IMG/VR virus record: IMGVR_UViG_3300045911_000130 | Span: 39,464 to 103,463 of that record | DNA from: a virus | Strand: one strand, 5' to 3' | Length of the DNA stretch: 64,000 bases | Shown: piece by piece, positions 7,682-55,964 of the stretch | How the letters are laid out: each line of letters begins with the position of its first letter | Numbering within the stretch: position 1 is the first letter of the stretch | Notes under the pieces: generated by a model | What the model was told of the DNA's origin: nothing | Seen by the model: only the letters and a program-made list of their open reading frames with translations | The model's database searches: none | Translations under genes and position numbers: made by a program

Positions 7682-10600
7682 AACCGCAAAGCACTGTAAC
7701 CAGTAAATTTCTTAATCGTGGTCTCATTCTGAGAAAGGACCAGGATTCCCTAGAGCCCGGAGAGTATTACGAACTGCTGAACATGCAGAGCGTGCAAGAG
7801 GGCGCAATGACTTTGCGTCTGGGCAATGCCGATCTTGCTCCGACGCTTGCTGCTTCTCTGTGGCCTAACACGTCTGGCAACCGCCTGCACACGATCACCA
7901 AGCTCACGCTTTCTCCTGACAATACGCAAAATCCAAGGTACATCGGATATGGGAACCTAATTTACAGAACCACGCCACAGGCAAATGGGGAATACACCAG
8001 CGCCACTTCTATTGCCCTAGACGGCTCTGAAGTGGCGGGTGCGCCCCCGGTCCCGAATCCGCAGCCGTACTTGCAGAAAAATGAGCGATGGGGAAGCGCT
8101 GTCTACAATACCGGAACGCAAGGACAGAGCAGCCAGTATTTTGCGACTTCCAAAGGATTGGCGCGGCATGACGGTGGCACCGGCAAGCTGCAATTGTGGG
8201 GTGTTCCGGCTCCACTTGCGCCCGCCGTAGCGGTCGTTGGCGCGGCATCCATCGTCAATGTCCTGACTCCAAATAGTGGTCCATTCCGCATCCAGATACA
8301 GATTACCGGATCGACGCCGATCAGCGTCATTGGCACGGCTGGATACTACCGCTACAGCTACAACGTTGTAAGCGGGCAGCCTCCGGCGGAGAACATGATT
8401 CTCTACAATGGCTCGGAAACGATCCAAGTAGCAGCAATCGATCCCGCAAGCAACTCATTCTTCGCTTACACCAACACAGCCAAAACCGGTGTCTGGTATG
8501 ATCGCGGAACGTCGCTGCAACCTTCGACGGCTGGCGTTGTGCAGGCAACCGTATCTTTTTTCGCGGCGAAAAATCTCAGCCTAAATGGAGATCCAAAAGA
8601 CCAATTTGATACGGTCGATCCGGTTTATATCTCGATCTATGTTGACCAGCCGCAGGTGATTCAGGATCTTCGTATACGGCTCGGAGTGGGAGAAACAGCA
8701 GATCCGGGGGGCAATCCGACTAATTTTTACGAAACGGTTGTTACTCCGTCTACCATTGCGCCGGTCGTCACGGCAGCGACGGACCCAGCCAATCAGGCGA
8801 ACGTTTACGACTATGCACGGCAACGCGCCGATTTGGTGAATCAGGGTATTGTAGGCGATTTCATCAATGAGAACGACTATCTCTTGCAGCAGACGCGCCC
8901 GCAGGAATTTCCTCCAACGATCTTTGGTGAACCAGTCTGGGTGCAAATCGGGCCGCAGAAGCGCGAATTTGTGACTGTGGGCAAAGCTGGACAGCCCGGT
9001 TTTGACTGGCGCTCAATTACGTCCGTCACGATCATCGCCCGGTCGCAGAATTCGGCCATAACAACGCCGTTCAATGTCGCCTTGGGCAACGTGGCGGCGG
9101 TCGGTGGCGGTGGCCCAGATGCCGCGCAGCCGGGCTATTTCCCGTACAACTACCTGTACCGTTATCGCAACGCCAAGTCGAATGCGCCGGGCAATCCATG
9201 CGTAGATCAGCCGGATAACAGCGGCGTGATCCCCAAGCGCCAGTCGGTTATTGTCCGGGTGCGCGGGACGGAAACCGCCGTGGCGGGGCAGCCGCAACGC
9301 GACGACTTGTATGGCGCTGGAACTCTCCAGGTGTTCCGGCGGGGAGGTCTATTTTCGGACGGCCTCTATCGATTGGTCAAGAACCATTTCAACCCTTTGA
9401 CCATCACCGGAACGATTTCGGGAACGACCCTGACGAAGACGAGCAACGCCAATTGGCAATTTGCATCGTTTTTGGTCGGCGCAAGCGTGACGTACACCAA
9501 CGGCAGCGTGCCGCGCTCGACCACGATTACGGCCATCTTGTCCGGCCAACAGGTGCAACTTGCAGACGCAGACGCCTTTACCGGTGTAATTCAGATTGGC
9601 ACCATTGTCATTGACAACACAGCCGACGAAGATATCCTTGGCGCTGAAGTCATGGAATTCGACAATGACCAGCCAGTCACCAGCACGCTCAAGCAAGCGG
9701 TGTCCGGCGTTATTGGTGCATTCCTATTCGGAGGCGGCGGCATTGGCATCAACCGGATTACGGTGGGCTCACAGCGTGGGGATGCTCCCGCTGTTAGAAT
9801 CGGCTCAATCATTAATATCGGAAGCGGCTCAAGTTATGAGCAAGCTCGAATTATTTTCATCTACGGCAACAATCCGCTCAACATCGAAGTGTACTTCCAG
9901 AAAACTCATACCGTGGGAGAGCAGATCGAAGTCAATGCGGCAGCCGGTCAACCTTGCACGCTTACGTGCGTAGTGGGCGATGCAGCTTTCATCGCGGGCG
10001 ACCCAAATAATGAAGGCCTGTTATACAAAAGCAAACAGGGCAATCCTGAAGCGTTCCCAGTCGTCAATCAGGTAACTCGCAACTTAAATATAGTGCAGGT
10101 TACCGCGCCGTCGCAAAGACTTGTCGAGATCACCGAATGGAATGGCGAGGTTTGCGCTCTTACGTCCGTCGGGATTAAAACCATTCGCATCTGGAATGGG
10201 GATCTTACTCCGCCACAAGAAACTCCAGCCAACCGTGGCTTGATGGATCGCAGATGTTACGCCAAGGGCGACAATCGCCTCTGGTATCTCTCTTATGATG
10301 GTATCTATGCGTGGACTGGCGGCCAAAGCCTAAAGATTTCTGAGGCAGTAAACTGGATCTTCCAAGGGCGAACAGTCAACGGGATTCCTCCTCTCGATTA
10401 CAATAATCTGACTTTTGCCTGCATGGAGTACGCGCAGAACACGCTGTATTTCAGTTATCTTGCACAGAATGGATTGTTCTACCGGCTGCGTTATGAAACG
10501 ATGTTCGACCGGTGGCATTTGGACATCACCAACAGCACGGCTGGGAATACGGATGTTGTCACTGCGTACTATCGAGAACTTGATACTGGACACTTGCTGG

Positions 10601-13600
10601 GCGCTCGATTAAATTCTGATGCGCCATCGCGATTTCAGTTCATTCAGGAACTCGCCTCCGGCACGGTGGGAAGTTCTGACACATTCCCGATCACCGATGC
10701 TACCGGCCTGGGTGGCAACGCGATTAAGTTCAGCATGGCGACTCCGGCATTTACTGGTGGCTCGCCGGAAACGCAGAAGCTCTTCACGCAAGTAATCCTA
10801 GAGCTTTCCAACCCGGATAGCGACGTTGCGGTTGTACCGTATTACGATTTCGCCAGTATCCCAGGCGGGGACAGCTTTATCATTCCGGCTCAGCGTGGGA
10901 CCTGTACGGTTACGGGGACGGCGTGTGCTCGTAATACTGGCGTGCTATTCACTGCCGACATGGTGGGATCAGCAATTCGGTTTTCCAATGGCACGCTGAA
11001 CGTCATAGCGGCTTTCGTCAATGCGAACGCAGTGACGCTACAAACTGCGCAAACTTTTAGCGGTACATTCTATCTTCTCAGGCGTCGGCGTGTTCCGTTG
11101 CCTTTGAATCAGACTCAAATAGTCGGACAAACCCTAGGGCGTGAAGCCTACGCGATATCTTACCAGATCAGCGGCGAAGGCCGCATCGCTCCGACTTTTA
11201 ACAGTCTCACGTTCGACTTTGCTCCGCTTGCTGAGATACAGCGCGGCAAGAATGTTGACTGGGATGATCTTGGATATCCCTATGATAAGTGGCTGAAAAC
11301 CTTAAGCATCGAATACAACATGAACGGGCAAGACGTTCTAATGTATCTCGACACGATCAGCGGGATTGAAGGCGAAACGCAGACGCTCGGAGTAATGCAG
11401 TTTTCTTTAGGAGGCACTGGAACTGGACGCTCCAAGGCGAATATCCCCGTTGTTTCGCAAGCCACGGATCGCGTTATCTGCAAGATGATGCGGCTTCGGC
11501 CAGCGGTTCAAGGTTCTAACATTCAGATTTTTGATTACAATTTAGACTTTGAGCAATACCCGGCTGATATTACGCGCTTCACCGACCCCAGCGACTACGG
11601 CAAGCCATGGGAAAAGTATTTCAATCAGTTGGTCATGGAGGTTGATACTGGCGGCGTGGCTGCGCAGGTTTTCATCTTCATTGACGGTTCGGGCACTCCA
11701 GCGCAAGGTCTGACGGTGACATCCACCAACACCGACCGAATGCGGCTTCTCACGTTGAGAAACGGAATTCGGGGCCGCATGGCGCGGCTTGCTGTGATTC
11801 CAGGTGTGGGCGGGAAGTTCCAGTTATTTAAGCACGACTTCGTGACGACTCCGGCTGACAAAGGGCCAGTTACTCATACCTACGATTGGAGCAATCTTGG
11901 GCATCCAGACGACAAGCGCATGTACCATATGTCGTTTGAGTACGAAGTAACCAATACGATGGAAGTGCAGTTGAGCGGAACTGTCGGTATTGGTAATTCG
12001 CAGGTTCCACAAAACATCACGACGTTTACGCTGACTCCTGGGGGCCGCAAAGAAGTAACGTATCAATTCCCGATTAATTCGGTGTACAAGCTGATCCGCT
12101 TGCAGCCGACGCTGACTAATCCACTTACGGACGCCAAGATCTACGTTCCTCAGTGGCAATTTGAAAAGTATCCACCGGACATTGTGCCTTACACGGAGCC
12201 TTCCAATTGGGGCTCACCATACCGGAAATACTTTCAGCAATTAAATTTGGATGTGGATACTGGCGGCGTCAATGCGACTGTGCAAATCGAAATTGACGGC
12301 AATATAGTGCAATCGCTTACCGTCAACACAACAGCGCTGAATCGTCTAGTCAATCTGACGTTGCTTGGTAACTTACTCGGGAGGCAAGCCCGCATTATCA
12401 ATACTGCGGGGCCGGGCGGCAAGTTCCAACTTTTTAACCACGAATTTATTACGCTTGCAGCCGACAAGGGGCCGGTTCTTCATACCTATGACTGGACCAA
12501 CAACGGCCATCCCTATGACAAACGGTTTTATGAAATAGCATTTGAATATGAAGTTCCAGTGCCGATGAATATGGTACTGGAGGGCCGTTCTGGAATCGGC
12601 GGGAACCAGACGACGACCGTGATTACAACGCTGGCTTTGACGCCGGGCGGTCGCAATATGCAGAATTACGCTTTCCCGAACAATAGCGTATACAAGCAAG
12701 TCCGTCTGAGGCCGGAAGCCGGAGTACCGCCGGAAGGCGCTCGCATCTATCAGCCGGTATTTCAGGCAGAGAACTATCCGCCTGATGTAGTGCCATTCAC
12801 CGAACCATTAGACTACGGCACTCCATACGACAAGTACTTTAATCAATTGGACTTGGACGTGGATACTGGCGGAGTGACCGCTACGGTCCAAGTGGAAATT
12901 GATGGCGCGGTTGTCCAAACCTTGCAGGTGACGACCACTCAATACGACCGTAAGCGTAACTTAACCCTATTGCCGCAGTTGAAAGGCAAGCTTGGCCGCA
13001 TTGTCAACACAGCAGGGCCGGGCGGCAAATTCCAACTATTCAATCAAACTTTTATTGTGGTCCCGGCTGATCCGGGGCCTGTGGTTCATAGTTTCGATTG
13101 GGACAATTTAGGACATCCTTACGATAAGCGCTTAAAGAGTGTAACTCTTGAGTACGACCCAGACGGTGTAAGCGGTGTCAACATGTTGATGGACACTATC
13201 ACCGGCAACGATGGGACCATCCTTACGTTGGACGCATTGACGTTCCCGCTCGCTGGGAGTGACCGCAGCCTACAGACATTTCCGATCCCAGATGGGACCG
13301 TAGTCAAGATGATTCGCTTTCATCCTCAGACTACTGGCGTCAATTGGAAGCATTGGAAGTATACCTTTGACTTTGAGCGGATGCCGCAAGATACGCTTCT
13401 GTTTACGGAGTTCGACGATCTTGGCTATCCATGCGAAAAGATACTTCGCAGCATTAACATTGATGCGGATACGGGCGGAGTGACAGCAGATTTGCACCTT
13501 GAGGTAGACGGACAAATCTCACACACTTTCCAGGTGCAGACGACTGAATTCGACCGAACCAGAGTTTTGACGCCTCCCAGCGACATCATCGGATTCCGGT

Positions 13601-14079
13601 TCCGCATGAAACTTGTACCAGGGCTGGGCGGGAAATTCCAGTTATTCAAGTACCAATACGACCGGCTCTTGGAACCGTGCCGGGTAAACCGATGGGACAG
13701 CTATGAGCAAAGTTTTGGCAGTAATGGGTACAAGTTCATGAAGCAAGTTTGGTTGGAATACACCAGTACTTGCTCATTGGCAATGTTCATCTATCGGGAT
13801 GACGGCGAATTGTTTCACGTGGAACCTCTTCCGGCGCATGACACGCGGTCCGTTTATCGCTTTTTCGTGCCCAAGGTTGGCGACCCTTCTGTCGTTGGTG
13901 CCGAAAAACGTTACAATAAGAGCAAAATTTATAGGTTTGTGATGGTGGCCGACAATACAGACGGCTGGTTTAAGTTCTACCGGGATGCGTCTCGCGTTGA
14001 GACGCTGAACACTGGACAGGATCAGCGGGCTGGATATCAGCAGCACTATCTGTTTACGCAAATGCCAATTCCGGTGTAA
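7678..14079 (+). CDS. Giant nozzle-like tail protein with C-terminal repeats
   Basis: At 2133 aa this is the largest protein in the window. The N-terminal start (STVTSKFLNRGLILRKDQD) and a region near residues 810-960 with blades such as NRLWYLSYDGIYAWTGG resemble the beta-propeller of podoviral tail-nozzle proteins (P22 gp10, T7 gp12). This is family-level inference. From about residue 1190 the protein consists of imperfect repeats with conserved VDTGGV, GGKFQLF and GHPYDKR motifs. I infer a tail tube or nozzle with added beta-sandwich arms. It is far longer than usual nozzles, by about three times. The spike gene follows 2 nt later. Confidence 0.6.
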   Translation: MKPQSTVTSKFLNRGLILRKDQDSLEPGEYYELLNMQSVQEGAMTLRLGNADLAPTLAASLWPNTSGNRLHTITKLTLSPDNTQNPRYIGYGNLIYRTTPQANGEYTSATSIALDGSEVAGAPPVPNPQPYLQKNERWGSAVYNTGTQGQSSQYFATSKGLARHDGGTGKLQLWGVPAPLAPAVAVVGAASIVNVLTPNSGPFRIQIQITGSTPISVIGTAGYYRYSYNVVSGQPPAENMILYNGSETIQVAAIDPASNSFFAYTNTAKTGVWYDRGTSLQPSTAGVVQATVSFFAAKNLSLNGDPKDQFDTVDPVYISIYVDQPQVIQDLRIRLGVGETADPGGNPTNFYETVVTPSTIAPVVTAATDPANQANVYDYARQRADLVNQGIVGDFINENDYLLQQTRPQEFPPTIFGEPVWVQIGPQKREFVTVGKAGQPGFDWRSITSVTIIARSQNSAITTPFNVALGNVAAVGGGGPDAAQPGYFPYNYLYRYRNAKSNAPGNPCVDQPDNSGVIPKRQSVIVRVRGTETAVAGQPQRDDLYGAGTLQVFRRGGLFSDGLYRLVKNHFNPLTITGTISGTTLTKTSNANWQFASFLVGASVTYTNGSVPRSTTITAILSGQQVQLADADAFTGVIQIGTIVIDNTADEDILGAEVMEFDNDQPVTSTLKQAVSGVIGAFLFGGGGIGINRITVGSQRGDAPAVRIGSIINIGSGSSYEQARIIFIYGNNPLNIEVYFQKTHTVGEQIEVNAAAGQPCTLTCVVGDAAFIAGDPNNEGLLYKSKQGNPEAFPVVNQVTRNLNIVQVTAPSQRLVEITEWNGEVCALTSVGIKTIRIWNGDLTPPQETPANRGLMDRRCYAKGDNRLWYLSYDGIYAWTGGQSLKISEAVNWIFQGRTVNGIPPLDYNNLTFACMEYAQNTLYFSYLAQNGLFYRLRYETMFDRWHLDITNSTAGNTDVVTAYYRELDTGHLLGARLNSDAPSRFQFIQELASGTVGSSDTFPITDATGLGGNAIKFSMATPAFTGGSPETQKLFTQVILELSNPDSDVAVVPYYDFASIPGGDSFIIPAQRGTCTVTGTACARNTGVLFTADMVGSAIRFSNGTLNVIAAFVNANAVTLQTAQTFSGTFYLLRRRRVPLPLNQTQIVGQTLGREAYAISYQISGEGRIAPTFNSLTFDFAPLAEIQRGKNVDWDDLGYPYDKWLKTLSIEYNMNGQDVLMYLDTISGIEGETQTLGVMQFSLGGTGTGRSKANIPVVSQATDRVICKMMRLRPAVQGSNIQIFDYNLDFEQYPADITRFTDPSDYGKPWEKYFNQLVMEVDTGGVAAQVFIFIDGSGTPAQGLTVTSTNTDRMRLLTLRNGIRGRMARLAVIPGVGGKFQLFKHDFVTTPADKGPVTHTYDWSNLGHPDDKRMYHMSFEYEVTNTMEVQLSGTVGIGNSQVPQNITTFTLTPGGRKEVTYQFPINSVYKLIRLQPTLTNPLTDAKIYVPQWQFEKYPPDIVPYTEPSNWGSPYRKYFQQLNLDVDTGGVNATVQIEIDGNIVQSLTVNTTALNRLVNLTLLGNLLGRQARIINTAGPGGKFQLFNHEFITLAADKGPVLHTYDWTNNGHPYDKRFYEIAFEYEVPVPMNMVLEGRSGIGGNQTTTVITTLALTPGGRNMQNYAFPNNSVYKQVRLRPEAGVPPEGARIYQPVFQAENYPPDVVPFTEPLDYGTPYDKYFNQLDLDVDTGGVTATVQVEIDGAVVQTLQVTTTQYDRKRNLTLLPQLKGKLGRIVNTAGPGGKFQLFNQTFIVVPADPGPVVHSFDWDNLGHPYDKRLKSVTLEYDPDGVSGVNMLMDTITGNDGTILTLDALTFPLAGSDRSLQTFPIPDGTVVKMIRFHPQTTGVNWKHWKYTFDFERMPQDTLLFTEFDDLGYPCEKILRSINIDADTGGVTADLHLEVDGQISHTFQVQTTEFDRTRVLTPPSDIIGFRFRMKLVPGLGGKFQLFKYQYDRLLEPCRVNRWDSYEQSFGSNGYKFMKQVWLEYTSTCSLAMFIYRDDGELFHVEPLPAHDTRSVYRFFVPKVGDPSVVGAEKRYNKSKIYRFVMVADNTDGWFKFYRDASRVETLNTGQDQRAGYQQHYLFTQMPIPV
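11560..13680 (+). repeat. In-gene tandem repeats, about 606 nt each
   Basis: Units begin near 11561, 12170, 12776 and 13382 (YPxDI-x3-F/Y-TEP, then PY-x-KYFxQL), giving a period of 606-609 nt, about 202 residues. Each unit carries VDTGGV, an EIDG segment, GGKFQLF and a DKGPV.HTYDW then GHPYDKR block. A partial unit precedes the first at about 11254 (DLGYPYDKWLK). Divergence is high enough that these are old protein-level repeats rather than recent DNA duplications. Confidence 0.8.
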
Positions 14080-21343: not shown

Positions 21344-23220
21344 TGCCCAAAGTCAAAAGCCTCACGACTGGCAATGTATTGACTGAATTTGAAGCGGCAA
21401 AGAAGTTCCGCGAATCTCCAGATTTGCCGGATACTTACAAGGCGATGTCGAACGCCAATATGCTGCGTGCGATTACTAGGGATTATGGCGACCAATATGA
21501 GATGGTCCCAGATGATCCTCCGGCGCGGCAGACGAATCCGGCGGCATTTACGCGGGAAAGTATTGGTCAAGACATTGCCGAAGGCGGCTGGGGCTATCTT
21601 CGAGCGCCCGCCAAACTTGGCGCAAACATCGTTTCCAGTGTGGGCAATCAGGTGTATCAGGTCGTAAGCGCACTGCCCGATCTTGCCAAATTGCCCATCG
21701 ACAAGAGCCAAGCCCGGATGCGGCATCAATTCCTTACGCAAACGCGCCAAGGTTTGGACCGCAACGATCCGAACTATCAAGCTGTTTTAGCCGAAGAGGC
21801 GCAAGCTCGCAAGGATGCGGCGTTCCCGACCATCGGCGAAATTTGGGATGCACTCTCCGCTGACTACAAGCAAAGATACGGTAGCCTGGATGGCTTCAGC
21901 CGGGCAATCATCGAAGATCCAGCCTCTGTGGCGGCAGACATCGCGACTGTAGCGACCGGCGTGGGCGCGGCAGCCCGAGGCGTGCAATTGGCATCGAAGG
22001 GCGCTGCTGGAATGAAAGCGGCGCAAGTCGCAACTCAGGCCAACCGTATGGCAAGCGCCGTTGATCCGTTCAATGCCGTAGCGGCGGCGGGGAAGTCAGT
22101 GATTCCGTTTCGCAAAGACATAGCGCGTGCTGCGTACAAAACGGCGCTTGACGTTGGATTCCGCGATCCTAGCCGACTCGCTTCGGTGGCCGATACCGGC
22201 CTGGAGCACGGCATTGTCGTCGCCAAACAGGATGAAAGCACGAAGATGAATCCGTTGCGCAGGCTGGTAGGAGATGCTGAAGTGGTTCCGAGCCGGGCAC
22301 GCGCCGAAGGGCGAATCAAAGAACTCACTAAGCAAGTTGACGACATCGTGGCGAACGCTCAACAGGGCGGCGCGTCTATCAATACGCAAGATATGGTTAA
22401 TCGCATCGAAAACGAGCTTGTATCTATGCGTAGAACAATGTCTGGGAGGCAGCAAAGTGATGTTATTTTCAAAAATATCGATAGGTGGCTAGAGGATAAC
22501 AATCTTGTTGGCAGGGATGCGGCTGGAAATGTTGTTCGGGATGCTCAAGGCAGGCCCTTGCAGTATCTTCCTATGTCGCCAGAGCAAGCACTTGATTTGC
22601 GCAGGGCATTGACGGCTGATTTACAGCAGCCCTTGAATCGCGTGGCGCAGAGCAGCCCGATGTCTCCATATGAGATTCGTAGTACGCTTCGCGGCGACGA
22701 AATGGCCCGCCGCGAACTTGTAGGAGAATTGAATAAGATCGATCCGTCTTTGGCTGAAATCGGCATGGAGCAGCGCGATCTTATCGACATCATGAATTCC
22801 ATCGATACGCTGCGTGGCAAGAAGTCGGGCGTCGTAGACTCGCGTGACGTGTATGCCGCTCGTGGTGCGGTTAGTGGTGCCAACACGGTCTACAACACGA
22901 TCACACTGGCAACACGTCTATTACAGCTTCCTGGGGTGCTTAGCACGCTGGCGATTAAGCTGCATCAACGTGGGATTAAGCCAAATACGCGCTTGCAGAA
23001 TATCGTCCGGCAGGCTGGCTTTAACTTGGCGCGATTTAATCAGGCGGCGGAGACGGGTGAAGCAAAGAACCTGGAAGCACTGGAATCCGGGCAAACTTTG
23101 CCTGCCGGTAAAGTCAAAATCGACCTTCTGAAAGCCCGCGAAAATCCGTATGGGGCAGTTACTCAAGTGCCTCCTACGCAAGCGCCTCCAGAAAAACCAG
23201 AGAGGAATCCGTATCGGTAA
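21343..23220 (+). CDS. Putative internal virion or ejection protein, 625 aa
   Basis: The N-terminal ~90 residues form a small alpha/beta unit, beginning MPKVKSLTTG. A Gly/Ala-rich hydrophobic region follows (DIATVATGVGAAARGVQLAS, residues ~200-222). The rest is long helices with several Arg/Asp-rich patches. The N-terminus has the same style as other phage ejection proteins, where a short leader precedes membrane-active helices. It overlaps its neighbours by one nt. Function is inferred from position and composition. Confidence 0.55.
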   Translation: MPKVKSLTTGNVLTEFEAAKKFRESPDLPDTYKAMSNANMLRAITRDYGDQYEMVPDDPPARQTNPAAFTRESIGQDIAEGGWGYLRAPAKLGANIVSSVGNQVYQVVSALPDLAKLPIDKSQARMRHQFLTQTRQGLDRNDPNYQAVLAEEAQARKDAAFPTIGEIWDALSADYKQRYGSLDGFSRAIIEDPASVAADIATVATGVGAAARGVQLASKGAAGMKAAQVATQANRMASAVDPFNAVAAAGKSVIPFRKDIARAAYKTALDVGFRDPSRLASVADTGLEHGIVVAKQDESTKMNPLRRLVGDAEVVPSRARAEGRIKELTKQVDDIVANAQQGGASINTQDMVNRIENELVSMRRTMSGRQQSDVIFKNIDRWLEDNNLVGRDAAGNVVRDAQGRPLQYLPMSPEQALDLRRALTADLQQPLNRVAQSSPMSPYEIRSTLRGDEMARRELVGELNKIDPSLAEIGMEQRDLIDIMNSIDTLRGKKSGVVDSRDVYAARGAVSGANTVYNTITLATRLLQLPGVLSTLAIKLHQRGIKPNTRLQNIVRQAGFNLARFNQAAETGEAKNLEALESGQTLPAGKVKIDLLKARENPYGAVTQVPPTQAPPEKPERNPYR

Positions 23221-26200
23221 TGGCTGACACTACTGCACTGATAAAGGGAACGCCTCTCGATGATACAGGCAAAGCAACCTTATACGATAAGTTCTATGCG
23301 TCTAAAAGTTCGCAGGAATTGACATCGTATCTGGATAGCACGCCTCTGCCCAAAGAGGTTAAGGCACAGCTATGGGATCAATGGAATACGGAAGTCAAGC
23401 CGTATTATGCCAAGCAGTCTGCCGGTGGTGCGGCTCCTGTAGCTCCAGTAAATCCGCCTGAAAAGCCGGGCGTATTGTCTTCATTGGCGCGTGGCGCGGT
23501 GTCCGGTGTCGTTCAGGGCACGATGGGCACTATTGGCGGTCTTGCGCAACTTGCGGGCGATGTTACCGGCATCGAAGGCTTGCAGAAGCTTGGGCAAGAA
23601 TATACCGGAACGGCGGAAACCCTGGGGCGTGAAATCTACGGCCAGCAGGGGGAAAACCGCGTCGGCGGATTTGCCCAGCGTGGCGCGGAAGTGTTCACCG
23701 ATCCTTCCTGGTGGGCTCAGACCGCCGGGGAAGGCATGGGCAACTTGCTGACTATGATCGCCTCCGGTGGCGTCACAAAAGCCGCTATCGATCAGGCCAT
23801 CAAGCGCGGTTTGGTGACAGGGACCGCCGCCAAATTCGCTCAGAGCAATGCGCCTGCCATCGTTGCCGGTGGCGTGGGCGGCGTGCAGGCGGCGGCCAAC
23901 ACGTATGCGCAAGCCAAGGCGTCTGGTGCCGATGATGCAACGGCGCTTAAGGCCGCCGGGATGGACTTTGTGCAGAATGCCGCTTTGGGTGCAGCCGGGG
24001 CGAAAATGGGCATGTTCGGCGGCGGATCGCGTGGAGCCACGGTTGCTCGTACCGCTGTGGCGGAGCCCGCTACCAACGTGGCGCAGGCTGGCTTGTCCAA
24101 TTTGATTGCACAGCAGACGTTCGACCCAAATCGCAGCCTTCAGGAAGGCGTGGTCGAAGGTGTCGTCCAAGGCGCGGCGGCGGCTGTGCCTGGAGGGGTG
24201 GCGGGATCGAAGATTCAAGCCCGCAGGCCGCAGGCGGACGCAATAGTCCAAGAGCTTGCGCCAATTGTCCAGAACGCGGCGACGATGGATGTCGCGGCGG
24301 CTGAAGGTGTCATTGCCAAGGCAATCGACACGCTCGATACACTCGTTCCGGGAACGCCGGAATATCAGGCCGTGGTCGATGCCGCGACTCAGGCTGAGAC
24401 GGCGCTGACCCAACGTGTCCAGACTGAAACCCGCCGGGCGGATCAAGACCGGCTGAAGCAAAGCCTGCAAGCTCGACAGGCGCTTCGCAATGCGAAAGTA
24501 CCCGATGCGCCGCCGGAGCGACCTTCGACCGCATTGGAATCAGCAAGCGTGTTGATGGGAGTGCCGGAAGGCGACCTGCAACGCATGGCAGCCCCTCCGC
24601 CGCCGGAGACGCCGGGGCCGTTGCCGGATAGCGTTCCTCCGATGGCCGGGGCCGTTGGCCCAGCGCCCGCACGTCCAGCGCCGGGCATCCGGGCGACCGG
24701 CGCAGAGGCGATTCCCGTCCGGCCAGAGGCGCAGATTCAGGGCGGACGCATCCCATTGCCGGAGCCCGCGCCGCCGCCGGAGCCTGTCACTTTGCCGCAA
24801 AACGTCCCGCCGATGGCTACGGAAGTCATCATGCCTCGACCGGCCACGCCGGAAGCACGTCTACTGCAAGGCACCGTCGAACCCATCGCGCCGCGCCGCG
24901 CAACGTTTCAAGGTCGGGAAATTGCTGTGCCAGAGCCACCGCCGAGAAGACCAGCGCCTGAGCCGTTGCCGGATAGCGTTCCTCCGATGGCGGGCGTAGT
25001 TATGCCAAAGCCTAAGGCGGCACAAACCGGCATGAAAGCGCCGGAGCCCAAACCTATGGAGTCGGGCCAATCCGCTCGCCTCAAGGGACAAGAGATCCCA
25101 ATACCCAAGCAAGTAAAGAAGACGCCGGAAGATGTTGGGCCGCCTTCCGAAATTGCGCCGCCGCTGGCGCGTGCGATATTGCCCGAGCCGATGAAGGGTA
25201 GCGCGAAGATGAAAGTCACGGAGCCGACTCCGATGGAGACGGCGGCCAAACCAAAAATACCGGATGCTGGTGGCAAACTCGCCAAGCTTACTCCAGCCAA
25301 AGAGGTCAAGCCTTCCGGGGATGATTCCAAGGTCGAAGAGCCTGGGACGGTGAAGCTGAAATCAGAGCCAGTGGAAAAGCCTGTGGGAATTGCGGAAAAA
25401 ACTGACGGCGAGCAACCATTGCGCGACGACCGGACCATGAGCATGTTCGGCGAAGACGAACGAAGCGATGCTGAATTGCAGGCGCAGGATATCGCGCGTA
25501 ACCGGGGCGAAGAACTTAAAGCAGTCCGGGCCGAGGCCGCTGAAAATGTAGCGGGCGTCGGCGGCGTGCCAGGCAGCAAAAGCACGCCATATGCAGAGCC
25601 TTACAAGGCGGCCAGGGTTCCGGTCGCCGATATTGCAGTTCACCCAGAAGACTTCCAGTACAAAGCGATCACCGATATGGAATCGGGGACGGGCGAAGCG
25701 CTGAAAGGCGTGAAGCAATGGGATGAAGACAAGGCCGGTGTCATTTCATTGTGGTATGACCCGGTGCGCAAAGAAAACGTAGTCATTAATGGGCATCATC
25801 GTTTGGCACTTGCCAAGCGTGTCGGGCAAAAAGACGTGCTGGTCAAATACATCCGTGCCGACAGCCCTGCGGAGGCTCGTATCATTGGGGCTCTCATTAA
25901 CATTGCCGACGACAAAGGAACCGCGATGGACGCGGCGCGTATCATGCGCGAGGTCAAGATGGACCCCAAGCTATTTGACATGAATCGCTTGGACATCGAA
26001 GGCCGCGTGGCGAGCGATGGCTTGGGGCTTGCCAATTTGACCGATAGTATGTGGCGGCGCGTAGAGACTGGCGAGATCCCGCCGGACGCTGGCGCTGTGA
26101 TCGGGAAGTACCTGGACGCAGGGAGGCAGGCCGACTTCTGGAACTTTTTACGCAAAGAGAATGAAACGGCGCGTGATATGATTCTCAATAACAGGCGGCG

Positions 26201-27254
26201 GTTGAAGTCGCTTGTAGACCGCGCAAACGCCGCAACCGAGAAGGAGGTAGTAAGCGATCAAGGCAATCTGTTCGGCATGGGCGAGATTCGGAGTTCGTTT
26301 AAGGAAGAAGCCGACCTTGTTGATTATGTCAGTGAACGTTTAAGCACGGACAAAAAGCTATTTTCGATGGTGTCCAATTCGCGCAACGCTCAACAGTTGA
26401 TGGAGAGCGGGAACGTATTGGATATGTCGCAGAATGAGCGCAAGAAGGCGCTGGAAGCTGCAATCAAACGCGGGTTCAATAAGCTTTCTAACTTGTCCGG
26501 GCCGTTAAATCGAATGATCCAACAGAACGCGGTAAAACTGATGGATGAAACGTTGACTCAGAAGCAGGCAGCCGAGATCCGAGAACGCAGTTATGAAGAA
26601 GCCAGACGAATCCTCGTCAAAGAACTTGGCCTCGAACGCGATTCGGGGACTGAGGGAGCACCTGCAATTCAACGACCGGCTGGGGATCAAGGGCAGACCG
26701 GGCGCGGAAATCCGCCTGAGGAAAGACGATCCGAAAGACGATCCGCCGAAGAGCCAGAAGAAATCGTGGAAGGAAGAAGAGTAAAGGGGCCGCCGGTAGA
26801 AGTGGCTCAGCCTGAGATCGAGAAGATCGAAAAAAATATCGACGCCAGACAGCTTGATAGGTCGATGAAGAAGGCGGAGGATGAATTCTCTGAACTTACT
26901 GCATCTGGTCAGGCTGAGTACTTAAAGAAAAAGCTGGAACCGATCTACAAAGACGCGCAGAATCGCATTAAGCTTTATAAGGTTGATACCGCGCTTAGGG
27001 ATAGGGGCTTGCAGTATCTATTAGGCGGCAAGAAGCTTAACGCCAACGAAGTGGCAAAACTGGAACGCGATGCTTTGGTCATGCTTCAGGATTTGACAGA
27101 AGTATATCGGTACAAGCTGTTGGTCGAAAATAAGCAGCCAAGCGATATTATTGCCGAGATGGGTAAGGAAATCGGCAGAAGCTTGAATAAGATAGCCAAG
27201 CAAATCGAAGATTGGGAGCAAACGACTTACCGCAACGTAGTTTTCGGGGGATGA
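23220..27254 (+). CDS. Giant polyvalent-type ejection protein with ParB-like domain
   Basis: The protein is 1344 aa. In order: a helical N-terminus (1-65); Gly/Ala-rich membrane-type segments (~85-330, for example GAVSGVVQGTMGTIGGLAQL); a Pro-rich region with several copies of a PLPDSVPPMAG-like unit (~455-650); and a ParB/Srx-like domain (~795-900). In the last, VPVADIAVHPEDFQYK is followed by VVINGHHRLALAKRVG; the GHHR matches the ParB 'GxRR' motif. A helical C-terminus closes the protein. Polyvalent proteins of phages and plasmids join many domains and are injected with the DNA. I infer that it enters the host and acts on nucleic acid or a nucleotide. Confidence 0.65.
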   Translation: MADTTALIKGTPLDDTGKATLYDKFYASKSSQELTSYLDSTPLPKEVKAQLWDQWNTEVKPYYAKQSAGGAAPVAPVNPPEKPGVLSSLARGAVSGVVQGTMGTIGGLAQLAGDVTGIEGLQKLGQEYTGTAETLGREIYGQQGENRVGGFAQRGAEVFTDPSWWAQTAGEGMGNLLTMIASGGVTKAAIDQAIKRGLVTGTAAKFAQSNAPAIVAGGVGGVQAAANTYAQAKASGADDATALKAAGMDFVQNAALGAAGAKMGMFGGGSRGATVARTAVAEPATNVAQAGLSNLIAQQTFDPNRSLQEGVVEGVVQGAAAAVPGGVAGSKIQARRPQADAIVQELAPIVQNAATMDVAAAEGVIAKAIDTLDTLVPGTPEYQAVVDAATQAETALTQRVQTETRRADQDRLKQSLQARQALRNAKVPDAPPERPSTALESASVLMGVPEGDLQRMAAPPPPETPGPLPDSVPPMAGAVGPAPARPAPGIRATGAEAIPVRPEAQIQGGRIPLPEPAPPPEPVTLPQNVPPMATEVIMPRPATPEARLLQGTVEPIAPRRATFQGREIAVPEPPPRRPAPEPLPDSVPPMAGVVMPKPKAAQTGMKAPEPKPMESGQSARLKGQEIPIPKQVKKTPEDVGPPSEIAPPLARAILPEPMKGSAKMKVTEPTPMETAAKPKIPDAGGKLAKLTPAKEVKPSGDDSKVEEPGTVKLKSEPVEKPVGIAEKTDGEQPLRDDRTMSMFGEDERSDAELQAQDIARNRGEELKAVRAEAAENVAGVGGVPGSKSTPYAEPYKAARVPVADIAVHPEDFQYKAITDMESGTGEALKGVKQWDEDKAGVISLWYDPVRKENVVINGHHRLALAKRVGQKDVLVKYIRADSPAEARIIGALINIADDKGTAMDAARIMREVKMDPKLFDMNRLDIEGRVASDGLGLANLTDSMWRRVETGEIPPDAGAVIGKYLDAGRQADFWNFLRKENETARDMILNNRRRLKSLVDRANAATEKEVVSDQGNLFGMGEIRSSFKEEADLVDYVSERLSTDKKLFSMVSNSRNAQQLMESGNVLDMSQNERKKALEAAIKRGFNKLSNLSGPLNRMIQQNAVKLMDETLTQKQAAEIRERSYEEARRILVKELGLERDSGTEGAPAIQRPAGDQGQTGRGNPPEERRSERRSAEEPEEIVEGRRVKGPPVEVAQPEIEKIEKNIDARQLDRSMKKAEDEFSELTASGQAEYLKKKLEPIYKDAQNRIKLYKVDTALRDRGLQYLLGGKKLNANEVAKLERDALVMLQDLTEVYRYKLLVENKQPSDIIAEMGKEIGRSLNKIAKQIEDWEQTTYRNVVFGG

Positions 27255-49913: not shown

Positions 49914-49957
49914 AGTTGAGGATTGAAAAAGATAGGGGCGTCTAGCGCTAAGTTAAA
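49914..49957. repeat. 44-bp duplicate of an in-gene segment, at the recT-like 3' end
   Basis: The stretch from TGAGGATTG through GTCTAGCGCTAA nearly repeats at 50652-50695 inside the same gene. In the gene it encodes LALDAPTFSNPQ; here it straddles the stop codon and lies out of frame. The palindrome TAGCGCTA (49943-49950 and 50682-50689) is in both copies and again at 62743-62750. Confidence 0.6.
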
Positions 49958-51851
49958 CCAAGTCGAATTCGCTCGTACCCTGGGGCTGCTCGGCGACGAT
50001 CTGCGCGATAGTCGCATCCACGTTTTCGTCGGAGATTTGAGCGATGGGTAAATTACCGTTTCGCTTGCTGATCTCCGCTTCCAGTACGGGGAGCGGCGTG
50101 CCGGTGGCCTTGGAATTCTCGATCAACTTGTATGCGCTATCGCTCTTGATGGCGACTCGCAAGTAAGACTGCATCGATTCGGCCTCATTCGCATTGATTC
50201 CGGTCTTTGCCAGGAATTTGACCGTATCTAGGCTGTTCATGCCTTTTACGGTGCCGAACTCTGCGGCAAGCGTGGCGGTTGCCTCGGTGAACATGGGGAG
50301 TAAGCCACGGATTTCCACGGCGTCCGCCATTGAGTTGGCAAGGGGTGGCAACGCCTTGAGGCGGTCGGCCAGGAATCGGCCAAGCGCCAAAGCGTCTTCT
50401 TTGAAGTAGCGATAGAGATAGGCGCGTCGATCCGGGGGAGTCAGGGCTATCTCAAACTTGTCTAGGCATGTTGCGTACAAGTCGGCGCGTGCGCTGCTGG
50501 ATGGGATTTCGCGGGCGCTTTGGAGGCCCAAGAAACCCATCATGAGATACGCAACGTTGTTCTTGTCTGTGCCGCTGCGGGCGAAGTGCTTCTGCCAACG
50601 TTCGCCAATCGTGCCGCTCGTGGCGACCTGTGGATCGACTACGGCGGATTGAGTTTGAGGATTGGAAAAAGTAGGGGCGTCTAGCGCTAATGGCTGGGCC
50701 GGTGGGGGCGGCGGCGCTGGGGCCGGGGCGGGACTCGGCGCGGGCGGCGGCTGGGCGGCGGTCGGTTGCGGCGCGGCGTTTTCCTGCGTCGATTTCGGCG
50801 GTACGGGGTCGGGTAGGATGGGCGTTACCGGGGCGGGCGGCGCTGGGGCTGCTGCGGGCGCGGGCGCGGGTTCTGCTGGTGGCGGGGCCGGGGCCGGGGG
50901 CGGTGCTGGGGCTGCTGCTGGGGCGGCGCTGGGCGGTTCCTCCGGGGGTGGCGGCGCAAGTGGCGGCGGTTCGCTCGGGGCGGCGGCGTTGGCTGCTGGC
51001 TTGCGGCCTCGCTTGGTTGCCGGGGGCGCGGCCTCTTCTGTGGGGGCCGGGGCCGGTGCTGGCGCGGGTTGGGCCGGTGCTGCGGTTGCCGGTGCTGGCT
51101 GCGTGACGGGGGCGGCCTGGGCGGGCGCGGGCATGGTTACAACTTTCGACTCTGGGGCCGGGCCGGGCGCTGGCTTGCTTCCCACTTTGAAAGCGTCATC
51201 GGGTGGGGCATCGGCGGGGGCGTTGGCGTCTTCGGCGCTGTATGCAAGCTCGTCGGCGGTGATGGTTCCCACTAAGATTCCAGCTTTGCGCCATGCTAAA
51301 GCCTCGGAACATTTCCCGGTCATGAAATACTGACCTTGAAACCATATCGGGCTGTTCCCTCGGTACTCTTCATAGTAAGCGCGGGCGGTGGTCGGGTGGT
51401 CGTCTCCTTTGATATAGAGCGTGGTATCGACATAGTAACCGTGGTCGTCGATGCCGGGCGTTTGCAAGGGCATACCGTTGTAAAGCCCATTCTTCCGGGC
51501 TGCGCTCCTGTATGCGTCTATGTGGACAACATACGCGGCCTTCTGGCGGTTGGCGAACTTATCGAATCTGAATTCGATATGCACTTCGTTCGTCAACGGG
51601 TCCAACTTGCGGCGGTGACAGAACACGATAAACTTGGCGAATTCTGAGCGGCTAGTATGCTTGGGCGGGCAATCCCGGTGCAATAATAGTAGCTCTTCTG
51701 GCTTCCAGGTGTTCTCCGTGAGTCTGGATAGGTTGTTAAGGAATTCGCTGTAAGGAATTCCCTGGCTTTGTTGTTCGGCCTCGCTGGGCGGCGTTGGCTG
51801 CTCGGGCTGGCCTGGGGTTGGCTTTTGGTCGTTGGTCTCATCCTGAGACAT
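49953..51851 (-). CDS. RecT/Bet-like single-strand annealing protein with long Pro/Ala linker
   Basis: At 632 aa, residues ~35-200 match the Red-beta/Bet fold: FAKFIVFCHRRKLDPLTNEV, then AAYVVHIDAYRSAARKNGLY and YFMTGKCSEALAWRKAGIL. A linker of about 170 residues (~225-400), almost only Pro, Ala and Glu, separates this from a helical C-terminal domain (~410-632). The enzyme anneals complementary single strands after resection by the exonuclease. The long linker and extra domain are unusual; the C-terminal part could contact SSB or the replisome. The start follows AAGGAG. Confidence 0.8.
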   Translation of the reverse strand: MSQDETNDQKPTPGQPEQPTPPSEAEQQSQGIPYSEFLNNLSRLTENTWKPEELLLLHRDCPPKHTSRSEFAKFIVFCHRRKLDPLTNEVHIEFRFDKFANRQKAAYVVHIDAYRSAARKNGLYNGMPLQTPGIDDHGYYVDTTLYIKGDDHPTTARAYYEEYRGNSPIWFQGQYFMTGKCSEALAWRKAGILVGTITADELAYSAEDANAPADAPPDDAFKVGSKPAPGPAPESKVVTMPAPAQAAPVTQPAPATAAPAQPAPAPAPAPTEEAAPPATKRGRKPAANAAAPSEPPPLAPPPPEEPPSAAPAAAPAPPPAPAPPPAEPAPAPAAAPAPPAPVTPILPDPVPPKSTQENAAPQPTAAQPPPAPSPAPAPAPPPPPAQPLALDAPTFSNPQTQSAVVDPQVATSGTIGERWQKHFARSGTDKNNVAYLMMGFLGLQSAREIPSSSARADLYATCLDKFEIALTPPDRRAYLYRYFKEDALALGRFLADRLKALPPLANSMADAVEIRGLLPMFTEATATLAAEFGTVKGMNSLDTVKFLAKTGINANEAESMQSYLRVAIKSDSAYKLIENSKATGTPLPVLEAEISKRNGNLPIAQISDENVDATIAQIVAEQPQGTSEFDLV

Positions 51852-52531: not shown

Positions 52532-53572
52532 CTATTCCTCGAAGTTGAATGCGCGGGTGGGCGCGTCCTGGGTCATGGTCTCCAGCGTGGCGGAGATTTG
52601 CGCCATCTGGCGGGCGACTACTTCGCGCAAGGGTTCCTGTTTGCGCAAGTCCTCCGGGGTGACTCCCTTGAGGATGTCGCGGGCCTGGGCTGCAATCTTT
52701 TCGAGTTCCACGTCGTTGCAGAGATTCCGGGCGCTGAATGCGTCAAGGAAGTCTGTAATGTTGGTGATGGCGGAATCCCTGAAAATTTTGGGTTTGCCGT
52801 TCTCGCGTTCGCCTGTCAGGCGTTCGGCCAAATTGCTGACAAGTTGCTTTAGGCTTTCACGTAGGGCGAAAGTGATCTCTTCGGCGGCGGTGTTGAGTTT
52901 GGCGTTAAGCTTGGCCGATTCACGCTTCAGTAACTCGGGGTTGACGTTCTCGGCGTCGTTGGGGGTGCTGATTCGCACGAATTCCCAATCGAAGTAAAAC
53001 GTCCTGCGGGCGTCGGCGGTGTTGGGGTAGTCGGCATCGGCGAACACTCCGCGCAAGCGAAGTGCGGCGTCCTCGCGGGCGGCGGCATAGGTTGCCATGA
53101 ATGCGTTAACAAGTTCCTCGCGGCGGCGCTGGTATGCCTGTAATTGCTCGTCGATGGCTTCCACGCTCACGATGGGCGCAAGATACATTCCGTCCTTAAG
53201 CCATGACGTGCGCAAGGTCTGGGAGTAAAGCCACTGGCGGATTTCTCCGTCTAGCTTGGCGATGGCGTCGTATTCCTTGCTGTCGATCAACTTTTTGCTG
53301 GCGGCGATAAGTTCCTTATCGGCGTCAACGTCAATCTGGTCTTTGCGCAAGGTGCGGCGAATTCCAAGCTTGCCGCTTGAAACGGACAATACCCAAGCTT
53401 TAGCTAGGATATCTTCGCTGGTCTTCTTGCTGACAACGGGGCGCGGCGTGGCGGCCTCGCCTGGGAGAATGATATCCTCCAGGGCGGGTATGTCGCGGGG
53501 GGCGGTTGCGATGGTGATGTCGTCGAAGTTGAATTCTTCGGCGGCGGCGGGTGCTTCTAATGTGGTGTTCAT
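52532..53572 (-). CDS. DUF3150-like partner of the AAA+ ATPase
   Basis: This 346-aa helical protein contains WVLSVSSGKLGIRRTLRKDQ (~60-79), AASKKLIDSKEYDAIAKLDG (~90-109), LRTSWLKDGMYLAPIVSVEA (~119-138) and then YPNTADARRTFYFDWEFVRI (~183-202). From memory this series matches DUF3150 proteins, which sit next to AAA+ ATPases in phages and plasmids. It probably is the adaptor or substrate that the ATPase remodels. The upstream region carries an AGTACT-type promoter. Confidence 0.65.
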   Translation of the reverse strand: MNTTLEAPAAAEEFNFDDITIATAPRDIPALEDIILPGEAATPRPVVSKKTSEDILAKAWVLSVSSGKLGIRRTLRKDQIDVDADKELIAASKKLIDSKEYDAIAKLDGEIRQWLYSQTLRTSWLKDGMYLAPIVSVEAIDEQLQAYQRRREELVNAFMATYAAAREDAALRLRGVFADADYPNTADARRTFYFDWEFVRISTPNDAENVNPELLKRESAKLNAKLNTAAEEITFALRESLKQLVSNLAERLTGERENGKPKIFRDSAITNITDFLDAFSARNLCNDVELEKIAAQARDILKGVTPEDLRKQEPLREVVARQMAQISATLETMTQDAPTRAFNFEE

Positions 53573-53666: not shown

Positions 53667-53867
53667 TTAGTGGCGCTGTTCGACCTTGGCGGCCTGTGTT
53701 AATGGGCGGGATTGCTTCCGGGTGATCTTCTCAGTACCTCCAGCTAAGCGGGACATTGCCGTAATGAATTCGGCGGCGTTCTGGTGGTTAGCGGCGCTAA
53801 CCTTATCGGTTTCGGTCTTGATGGTGCCATCTTCCAGGATTGTGATTTTGAACGTATCGCGGGCCAT
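53667..53867 (-). CDS. DUF2997-like small protein, 66 aa
   Basis: The protein MARDTFKITILEDGTIKTET (1-20) continues with a helix NAAEFITAMSRLAGG. A beta hairpin with 'G-x-(I/T)-x-x-E-T' and then a helix 'A-x-x-F-I/L' is the DUF2997 pattern. In bacteria DUF2997 genes lie next to DUF1257 (Ycf35-like) and AAA+ genes, and the same neighbours occur here. It is coupled to the upstream gene by TAATG. Assignment is by resemblance. Confidence 0.55.
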   Translation of the reverse strand: MARDTFKITILEDGTIKTETDKVSAANHQNAAEFITAMSRLAGGTEKITRKQSRPLTQAAKVEQRH

Positions 53868-54226
53868 TACTTCGTTACCTCGTATTGGGTGAGTCCCTGT
53901 TTCGTTGTGCTCTTCTTTAGGCTCCATCCGAACTTCTTAGCCTGGGTCAAAACTACTCCATTGGAGTAGGCGCGTTTGATGCGCTTGGCGACTTCCTGCG
54001 CTTCCTCGTCTTCCTGATCGTTGGTGAGACTCGCTTTGTATGTGCGGGTCGTGGTGTTGAATGCGCCAAGATAGCGGCGCGTTTGCTGGTCGTAAAGTTT
54101 CAGCGTATCGGGCTGATAGCTGAGCGCGTTGGCTGTGATCTGGGCATCGGCTAATCCTACTTTCAGGGTTGCCGGGTCCATCTTGTCAAGTACGATTGAT
54201 ACTTCGCGTATCGAGTCACATGGCAT
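53867..54226 (-). CDS. DUF1257/Ycf35-like protein, 119 aa
   Basis: ATG 54226 follows a strong AGGAGG. The C-terminal half has AQEVAKRIKRAYSNGVVLTQ, then AKKFGWSLKKSTTKQGLTQY, which matches the Ycf35 ending of 'I-x-Q-x-Y-x-x-x-x-(V/L)-x-x-x-x-(K)-(F/L)-G' plus a closing strand. The N-terminal half is a small alpha/beta unit. Neighbours are the Ycf46-like ATPase and the DUF2997-like protein, the same set found in bacteria and cyanobacterial plastid relatives. The function of the set is unsettled. Confidence 0.55.
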   Translation of the reverse strand: MPCDSIREVSIVLDKMDPATLKVGLADAQITANALSYQPDTLKLYDQQTRRYLGAFNTTTRTYKASLTNDQEDEEAQEVAKRIKRAYSNGVVLTQAKKFGWSLKKSTTKQGLTQYEVTK

Positions 54227-54256
54227 AGGTTTTTCCTCCTGTTTGAAATTATATAA

Positions 54257-54288
54257 GATACAGGGCATAGAATCCTATACCCTGTATC
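54257..54288 (-). terminator. Hairpin between ATPase and DUF1257-like gene
   Basis: GATACAGGGCATAG (54257-54270) pairs with CTATACCCTGTATC (54275-54288), one mismatch and a 4-nt loop. On the minus strand it is followed by TTATATAATTTC, a weak U-rich end. It lies 11 nt after the ATPase stop, so partial termination could set the ratio between ATPase and partners. Confidence 0.55.
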
Positions 54289-54299
54289 ATTTTTAGGTG

Positions 54300-55964
54300 T
54301 TACTCGTCGCGGTCGATGGCGCGGGTGCCGCTGGGGTCATCGCCGATACTTGGGCGCGTGCTGGTCGTGCGGTGGTGGTACGTTCCAGCATAGCTTGCGC
54401 TTACATACTTCCCGCTGCATTCCTGGCGTAGCTTCTCGATCTTGTTCCCGCTGCTCTGGGTGACGTTAACAACGAATTCGGCGGCCTCCATCAGCGTGAA
54501 TCCCATGATGGCGGCGTTCTCGGCGCATTTCTGAATGTCGCGGCCTGCCCATCCTTCGCTATCGGGGATTTGTTGGTCTGGGTCAAGCTTGTACTTGCGA
54601 ATGTACAGGTCCCAAATTACGGCGCGTTCGTCGGCGTTGGGTAGGTCAAAAAAGAACGTGGGCAAGCGAAAGCGGCCTAACAGTTCTGGCGGCATACCTG
54701 CGATCTGGTTGCACGTCGCGATAGCAAGGATCTTGCCTTTCTTTCCGGCGATGGCTGAGACGGTCTTGAGCGCGGCGGCTAGTTGCTGATTGCTCTGGCC
54801 TACAATTCCGGCCTTCATGTCGGCAATGTTGCACGCTACGGTGGGAACTTGGGCCTGGTTTCCGGCGGCCTTCGCCATCATGCTCTTGCCTGATCCGGGC
54901 GGGCCGATTAGGATGCTGCCCGTAACTTCCTCGTCCTGCATCCAGGTTAGGATTTTCCCTAACATTTCCTGCGTTACTCCGCTGCTGTCTCCGGTCGATC
55001 CTCCGAACATCTTTTCGATTTCGTCAAGCCACAATACTACGCGGGTTTCGTTGCGTTCCAGGTAGCGGGCCATGAAGCGCTTGCAGTTGTCGCTGCCTCC
55101 AATGCTGGCGAAGTCCTCGCCACCTCTCCAAACACTCAAGCCGGGTACTTGCTCAATGGTGCGGCGTTTGCGTTCCCATACTGCCTGCACGTCGATGCTG
55201 GTTTGCTTCGTGGCGGCGTCCTGGCTCACGCTCATCGCGATAACTTGCTCGGCGCTGAATGCGGATAAACCCGTCGTGGCGCTGATAATCGCCTTCGTGA
55301 TTTCGGGCGTGGGCGTGATGCCTCCAGAATTCAGGATGCTGTTAGCAATTGCGCCTAGCTCGTCTTCGTTGGGTAGCGGTTCATCGATGACTAGCAAGTC
55401 TTGGGACAATGAGGCGGGCGGCGTGAGACTCGGCGCAAGTAACACTAGGGTCCTCCAAGGGATTTGCGCACCCTTGTATAGATCGCGCAAGTTCCATGCG
55501 GCCTGTTGAACGTCGGGCGCGTCGGGGCTGAGATACAGGTGCGCGTTCATCACAATAACAATGGTCTGCTGGGGCGCATAGCGGGCTACGTGCATAGCCT
55601 CGGCGGGGTTGGTCTTCATGCTGCCTACCTCGATAATCGCGGCGGCGCGTTTCTCCGGCTCCTTCGGGAGATTCTTCGCCTCTTCCTCGGTCATGCACAT
55701 GGCGACAATGGCCTCGTATCCCTTGGGCGTGATGGGCCGAATACCTTGCATGATATCCCAGCAAACAATGGGCGGTACTCCGAATTTCTTGGTAGTCGCG
55801 GCGGCTCGGATGTTCTGAATCGTCGCGGTAGGGTCGGGCGTGGTGATCGCGATTAGCGGCGTTGATACTTGCCGGGCGGCGCGAAATTGTTTCATGCAAG
55901 CGCTAAGCTGCTCTATTGGGGTAACTTGCGCTTCGTTCTTGGGTGCTTCTGTGGTGGCGGTCAT
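54300..55964 (-). CDS. Ycf46-like AAA+ ATPase with Walker B placed before Walker A
   Basis: At 554 aa, the N-terminal ~280 residues resemble Ycf46: STPLIAITTPDPTATIQNIR (34-53), PPIVCWDIMQGI (64-75), QTIVIVMNAHLYLSPD (133-148), PWRTLVLLAP and VIDEPLPNEDEL. The AAA+ domain follows SIGGSDNCKRFM. The Walker B-like VVLWLDEIEKMFGG (309-322) and ILTWMQD (338-344) come first, then Walker A IGPPGSGKSM (353-362), GIVGQSN (386-392), sensor 1 ILAIATCN (412-419), PPELLGRFR (425-433) and sensor 2 GWAGRDI (471-477). Normally Walker A precedes Walker B, so the domain is rearranged. It probably remodels a protein complex with its small partners. Confidence 0.8.
   Translation of the reverse strand: MTATTEAPKNEAQVTPIEQLSACMKQFRAARQVSTPLIAITTPDPTATIQNIRAAATTKKFGVPPIVCWDIMQGIRPITPKGYEAIVAMCMTEEEAKNLPKEPEKRAAAIIEVGSMKTNPAEAMHVARYAPQQTIVIVMNAHLYLSPDAPDVQQAAWNLRDLYKGAQIPWRTLVLLAPSLTPPASLSQDLLVIDEPLPNEDELGAIANSILNSGGITPTPEITKAIISATTGLSAFSAEQVIAMSVSQDAATKQTSIDVQAVWERKRRTIEQVPGLSVWRGGEDFASIGGSDNCKRFMARYLERNETRVVLWLDEIEKMFGGSTGDSSGVTQEMLGKILTWMQDEEVTGSILIGPPGSGKSMMAKAAGNQAQVPTVACNIADMKAGIVGQSNQQLAAALKTVSAIAGKKGKILAIATCNQIAGMPPELLGRFRLPTFFFDLPNADERAVIWDLYIRKYKLDPDQQIPDSEGWAGRDIQKCAENAAIMGFTLMEAAEFVVNVTQSSGNKIEKLRQECSGKYVSASYAGTYHHRTTSTRPSIGDDPSGTRAIDRDE

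Follow-up and report, generated by a model that had tools for sequence, protein, structure and literature searches.

AAA+ proteins are among the largest protein classes, and to our knowledge motif definitions and profile models take the order Walker A, Walker B and sensor 1 as fixed. A 554-aa protein encoded in a 64,000-nucleotide stretch of a virus record (IMGVR_UViG_3300045911_000130, positions 39,464 to 103,463; hereafter the window) carries its Walker B ahead of its Walker A, raising the question of whether a AAA+ domain has truly been rewired in nature and, if so, whether it would still fold and work as an ATPase. Because genes for a major head protein, a portal, a DnaB-like helicase, a primase and an endolysin are found on the same 103,463-base record, the window is the DNA of a tailed phage. 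The C-terminal part of a 1344-aa protein (window 23220-27254) matches phage portal proteins (phrog_21), and a 2133-aa open reading frame (7678-14079) has no assigned role.

Two transposed blocks in a Ycf46-like ATPase

All AAA+ features, namely Walker A, Walker B, sensor 1, a candidate arginine finger and the helical lid, are present in the window protein (Table 1). The segment VVLWLDEIEKMF occupies residues 309-320 and is followed by a helix up to LTWMQ (339-343), both ahead of Walker A; after Walker A, VGQSN, IATCN (N419), PPELLGRFR (R431) and the lid are read in the usual order, as the original prediction had described. Its numbering was right for the Walker A lysine (K360) and one residue short for the Walker B acids, which are D314 and E315 rather than D313 and E314. 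We also looked for a normal Walker B after residue 392, where none had been expected, and found none: downstream of Walker A the alpha2 block of the window protein passes directly into the sensor-1 strand AIAGKKGKILAIATCN, and the hypothesis of a second Walker B was rejected.

Table 1. Location of the permuted ATPase, its parts and its neighbours in the window.
Feature	Position	Strand	Residues and evidence
Permuted Ycf46-like tandem AAA+ ATPase	54300..55964	minus	554 aa; profile matches, motif order, AlphaFold2 model
N-terminal degenerate AAA-like half, without P-loop	55326..55901	minus	residues 22-213
Relocated block B: beta3 (Walker B) + alpha3	54933..55046	minus	residues 307-344; profile 99-139; model
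Walker B VVLWLDE	55020..55040	minus	residues 309-315 (D314, E315); both acids invariant, 52/52
Block A: beta1 (P-loop) + alpha1 + beta2 + alpha2	54747..54923	minus	residues 348-406; profile 40-98
Walker A GPPGSGKS	54882..54905	minus	residues 354-361; K360 invariant, 52/52
beta4 with sensor 1	54708..54734	minus	residues 411-419 (N419 invariant, 52/52); model strand 411-418
Candidate arginine finger R431	54672..54674	minus	invariant, 52/52; role suggested by place after sensor 1
C-terminal helical lid with sensor-2 region	54417..54635	minus	residues 444-516; model helices
Small partner starting MPC...	53867..54268	minus	133 aa; 7-member family adjoining permuted ATPases
DUF2997-like small protein	53667..53927	minus	profile E 1.4e-17, seeded with relatives including itself
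DUF3150 partner, long-helix protein	52532..53572	minus	346 aa; Pfam DUF3150 E 1.5e-6

From 52 canonical phage Ycf46-like ATPases, in each of which Walker B comes 52-54 residues after Walker A, we constructed a profile. The window protein matched it in three non-colinear pieces (E 1.2e-13, 5.3e-14 and 1.5e-13): residues 289-346 correspond to profile positions 81-139 (the Walker B portion to 99-139), residues 348-406 to positions 40-98, and residues 408-490 to positions 138-226. Along the chain the pieces run 99-139, 40-98, 138-226, with breakpoints at profile positions 98/99 and about 139 and with neither gap nor duplication. Beginning with the P-loop strand, the matches cover essentially every profile position once, and therefore two neighbouring blocks were swapped at element boundaries. 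We show that beta1-alpha1-beta2-alpha2 and beta3-alpha3 are exactly transposed: beta3 precedes beta1, strands beta1 to beta5 are out of numerical order, and the helix ahead of the P-loop, the sensor-1 half and the lid are unmoved. The proposal that the Walker B strand and its helix were moved before the P-loop is thus borne out by profile positions 99-139 lying ahead of 40-98. Its description as circular-permutation-like holds for the fact of a rearrangement but not for its kind, which is an exchange of two adjacent blocks within one domain, the domain as a whole not being circularly permuted.

Profile libraries match the window protein in fragments only, the best family matches being AAA and Ycf46/CDC48. 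Positions 7-287 of the phrog_8638 profile align with residues 9-299 (E 3.9e-49), and a degenerate AAA-like N-terminal domain of the phrog_8638 type is present. Over the phrog_8638 profile, the window protein, its counterpart in phage Tunturi_3 and the relative L059 match in four separate stretches and L085 in three, whereas canonical proteins match in one. Because the colinear match fails, we regard the permuted proteins as a sister lineage of the Ycf46-like phage ATPases rather than as canonical members. The window protein is clearly derived from such ATPases, and the predicted Ycf46-type ancestry agrees with its matches to the canonical Ycf46-like profile and to phage Ycf46 models. Both forms (canonical phrog_8638 examples are L338C_050 of Rhizobium phage L338C and Ycf46 of Pseudomonas phage SM1) share the degenerate N-terminal half, the motifs and the lid, and their gene partners DUF2997 and DUF3150 overlap. 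The permuted clade differs in its B-A order (A-B in the canonical proteins), in a shorter stretch ahead of the first strand and in the frequent use of GAAKS for GxGKS.

Breadth and origin of the permuted clade

The closest protein from a phage isolate is ORF103 of Tunturi_3, a cultured phage of Tunturiibacter psychrotolerans X5P2; it is 38% identical to the window protein and has the B-A order too. Searching with a DNA pattern for the clade signature RFxLxTFFFDxP, which lies downstream of sensor 1, gave 70 further relatives, some in viral contigs and some in bacterial genomes. The permuted order occurs in about 30 viral (IMG/VR) and about 40 bacterial contigs, the viral ones and Tunturi_3 bearing out the similar phage proteins mentioned in the original prediction. 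Bacterial relatives are mostly Acidobacteriota, especially Bryobacterales, with single relatives labelled Planctomycetaceae, Phycisphaerae, Deltaproteobacteria and Actinobacteria. The permuted set comprises 72 sequences including the window protein and Tunturi_3, four of them short fragments without both motifs. The order Walker B, Walker A, sensor 1, Arg region, first noted in the window protein, was found in all 68 permuted proteins with both motifs resolved, and A before B, followed by sensor 1 and the Arg region, in 52/52 canonical proteins.

In a tree based on order-free columns, the permuted and canonical sets split cleanly (supports of 0.79 and 1.0 on either side of the midpoint root), a split that signature-based sampling partly favours; for the same set, the breadth is a lower bound. 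Among the other searches, viral contigs searched with a pattern from a single sequence yielded nothing, an alignment of two permuted proteins retrieved 50 loci, of which the 48 resolved by motif scan were all canonical, and a DNA pattern spanning the new junction (WMQ to P-loop) had zero matches. The permuted proteins are one clade. Since about 70 related proteins of other phages and soil bacteria carry exactly the same swap, it is a real natural rewiring and no accident. An artefact of assembly or annotation, for which we found nothing in favour, is ruled out by the same order in the isolate genome and in the viral and bacterial contigs, and its probability is vanishingly small.

The B-A order would most simply have arisen from one event, a tandem duplication of the beta1-alpha3 unit (ABAB), after which the first A and the last B would have been lost, leaving B-A between unchanged ends. 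Duplication and trimming is the usual route to permuted proteins. Among the loci read, we found no intermediate with both Walker B copies.

Several permuted copies are found in single Bryobacterales assemblies, namely JALHNH01 (L096, L113, L131, L145), JAIEPW01 (L092, L097, L133, L148) and JAFKEE010000023 (L102, L132). These multicopy genes stand near phage-like genes (Sipho_Gp157, SSB-like), which suggests repeated mobile-element insertion. Two further permuted ATPase genes are apparently interrupted by inteins, one (L072, 540-3218) by about 370 aa placed at the Ser of VGxS or ahead of it and the other (L082, 1438-3396) by about 157 aa ahead of the sensor-1 Cys; both putative sites are conserved active-site points.

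Predicted fold and active site

The AlphaFold2 model of the window protein, for which a 52-sequence alignment served as input, has a mean pLDDT of 90.9 and a pTM of 0.84, with pLDDT of about 94-97 across the relocated strand. In the model, the relocated segment forms a strand (307-313) and a helix (330-344). Next along the chain are the P-loop strand (348-353), a helix (360-371), a strand (375-378), a further helix (390-406), the sensor-1 strand (411-418) and the lid helices (444-457, 474-487, 491-495 and 501-516). Foldseek returned whole-length matches to the tandem AAA proteins p97, Cdc48 and Rix7 (E about 1e-13, about 600 alignment columns) and to phage Ycf46 models (TM about 0.6). The two-AAA layout of p97/Cdc48 and Rix7 is overall that of the window protein, but both of their domains are canonical in order and they are only distant relatives in sequence.

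The rewired connections are close in length to those that they replace. GxS to the sensor-1 Asn spans 28 residues, compared with 24 from GxS to the Walker B Asp in canonical proteins, and the Walker B Asp to the Walker A Lys spans 46, compared with 44 from that Asp to the sensor-1 Asn. These near-canonical lengths support the place of beta3 in the sheet as most likely. The normal AAA+ sheet order is 5-1-4-3-2, and the window protein would most likely adopt it, with alpha3 running into beta1 rather than beta4 and alpha2 into beta4 rather than beta3; under the right-handed crossover rule, the helices of both rewired connections should stay on their old face. At Neff of about 37, strand-strand coevolution gave no signal in the permuted set. 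Alternatively, the relocated Walker B strand might complete the sheet of a neighbouring subunit, so that active sites would form between chains only. AAA+ proteins form rings, and on such general grounds the relocated segment could reach a neighbour. However, the monomer model is confident across this segment and the flanking linkers are near the lengths of canonical intrachain connections, which makes such a strand swap very improbable.

With a normal intrachain sheet, the two Walker motifs, sensor 1 and the arginine finger would converge at the usual site, and ATP would be hydrolysed there, probably by a ring of subunits. All 52 canonical proteins and the window copy keep Gly at the position equivalent to residue 359, ahead of the P-loop Lys; 56 of 68 permuted proteins have Ala or Ser there, mostly as GPPGAAKS. 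Ala or Ser at this position is unusual in an active P-loop ATPase. The substitution in most relatives would favour a pseudo-ATPase, in which the rearrangement broke the active site and left a domain that only binds nucleotide or acts as a scaffold. Unlike decaying sites, however, the Walker A Lys (K360), both Walker B acids (D314, E315), the sensor-1 Asn (N419) and the candidate arginine finger (R431) are invariant in all 52 aligned permuted proteins, and we consider a pseudo-ATPase improbable. Overall, we think it likely that the clade represents a conserved, working topological isomer of the AAA+ fold, of single origin, carried through phages and the mobile elements of Acidobacteriota and tolerant of Ala or Ser where the P-loop Gly before Lys would stand.

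Gene partners and possible role

The ATPase gene in the window is followed by genes for the small MPC-type protein, the DUF2997-like protein and the DUF3150 protein, and farther on by RecT, a PD-(D/E)XK exonuclease and a helicase. A DUF1257/Ycf35 likeness of the MPC-type protein is weak, the Pfam DUF1257 match being E 0.064 in one relative. Pfam DUF2997 matches 6 of 12 relatives of the next small protein, the window copy itself being unmatched, and the start of this gene is likely an internal Met near 53867. The AlphaFold2 model of the DUF3150 partner consists of long helices (pLDDT 85.8) and found no PDB fold match at E 0.001; a VWA domain was not matched by Pfam, and the open-access literature searched gave no paper on DUF3150. 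ORF96 of Tunturi_3 (L002, 11567-12526), annotated as an HNH endonuclease, is the DUF3150 homologue of the window gene (30.7% identity over 85%, E 1e-30) and is probably misnamed. The RecT-like annealing protein (window 49953-51851) carries a long Pro/Ala-rich low-complexity stretch in its middle.

We counted neighbours at loci with at least 3.5 kb downstream (30 permuted, 49 canonical). DUF2997-like genes are near 26/30 permuted versus 19/49 canonical ATPases, DUF3150 near 25/30 versus 8/49, and an NrdG-like radical-SAM protein near 14/30 versus 3/49. Near the ATPase gene of the window we found no radical-SAM gene, and the genes downstream of this ATPase gene are recombination genes. Since both forms have the same kinds of partner, the permuted protein presumably has largely the function of its canonical relatives. 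DUF2997-like neighbours at five loci (L060, L062, L067, L080 and L082) end in His-rich tails, such as HHHHHHHHHNHNHN, suggesting that these partners may bind metal. In cyanobacteria, DUF2997 and ycf35 are clustered with the fed7 ferredoxin (PMC4284462). Based on this gene company, namely DUF2997, DUF3150, the frequent radical-SAM partners, the Fed7 cluster and the His-rich tails, we tentatively favour a role in which ATP is used to remodel or activate a metal- or radical-dependent enzyme, a guess that is at best evenly balanced. NorQD (PMC13036017), a MoxR-type AAA+ protein with a VWA partner, is a works-like analogy for metal-enzyme handling and likewise pairs a AAA+ protein with a constant non-ATPase partner, although the partner here is DUF3150, with no VWA domain seen, and the core order differs too.

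The main rival is that the fold is as proposed but the module acts in the recombination or replication of phage DNA instead of on a metal or radical enzyme. The recombination genes that follow the ATPase and DUF3150 genes in the window would fit such a role, as would the Sipho_Gp157 and SSB-like genes near some relatives. Yet recombination genes are few among the flanking-gene families common to the loci, and the neighbours that recur most steadily, by a wide margin and also at canonical loci, are DUF2997 and DUF3150; we regard a recombination role as possible but rather doubtful. Taken as a whole, our reading of descent from Ycf46-like ATPases, a degenerate N-terminal half, a swapped core in a normal sheet, an active ATPase, a single origin and a guessed part in remodelling metal or radical enzymes seems quite likely.

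Reordered catalytic motifs in a kept fold are known from other P-loop NTPases, the circularly permuted GTPases YjeQ/RsgA and YloQ, as far as these are cited in PMC2213659 and PMC3179968. Those are GTPases with a circular permutation, whereas the window protein is a AAA+ protein with an internal block transposition; its best matches are AAA and Ycf46/CDC48, not a TRAFAC GTPase core. We found no description of a permuted AAA+ domain in the open-access literature searched, and we call the lineage undescribed only provisionally. Order-dependent annotation splits or underscores block-swapped AAA+ proteins. The presence of a permuted ATPase in the cultured phage Tunturi_3 makes it directly testable. 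A conserved block-swapped clade means that the order of catalytic blocks in AAA+ proteins is not essential, and offers a natural test case for the folding of AAA+ domains.
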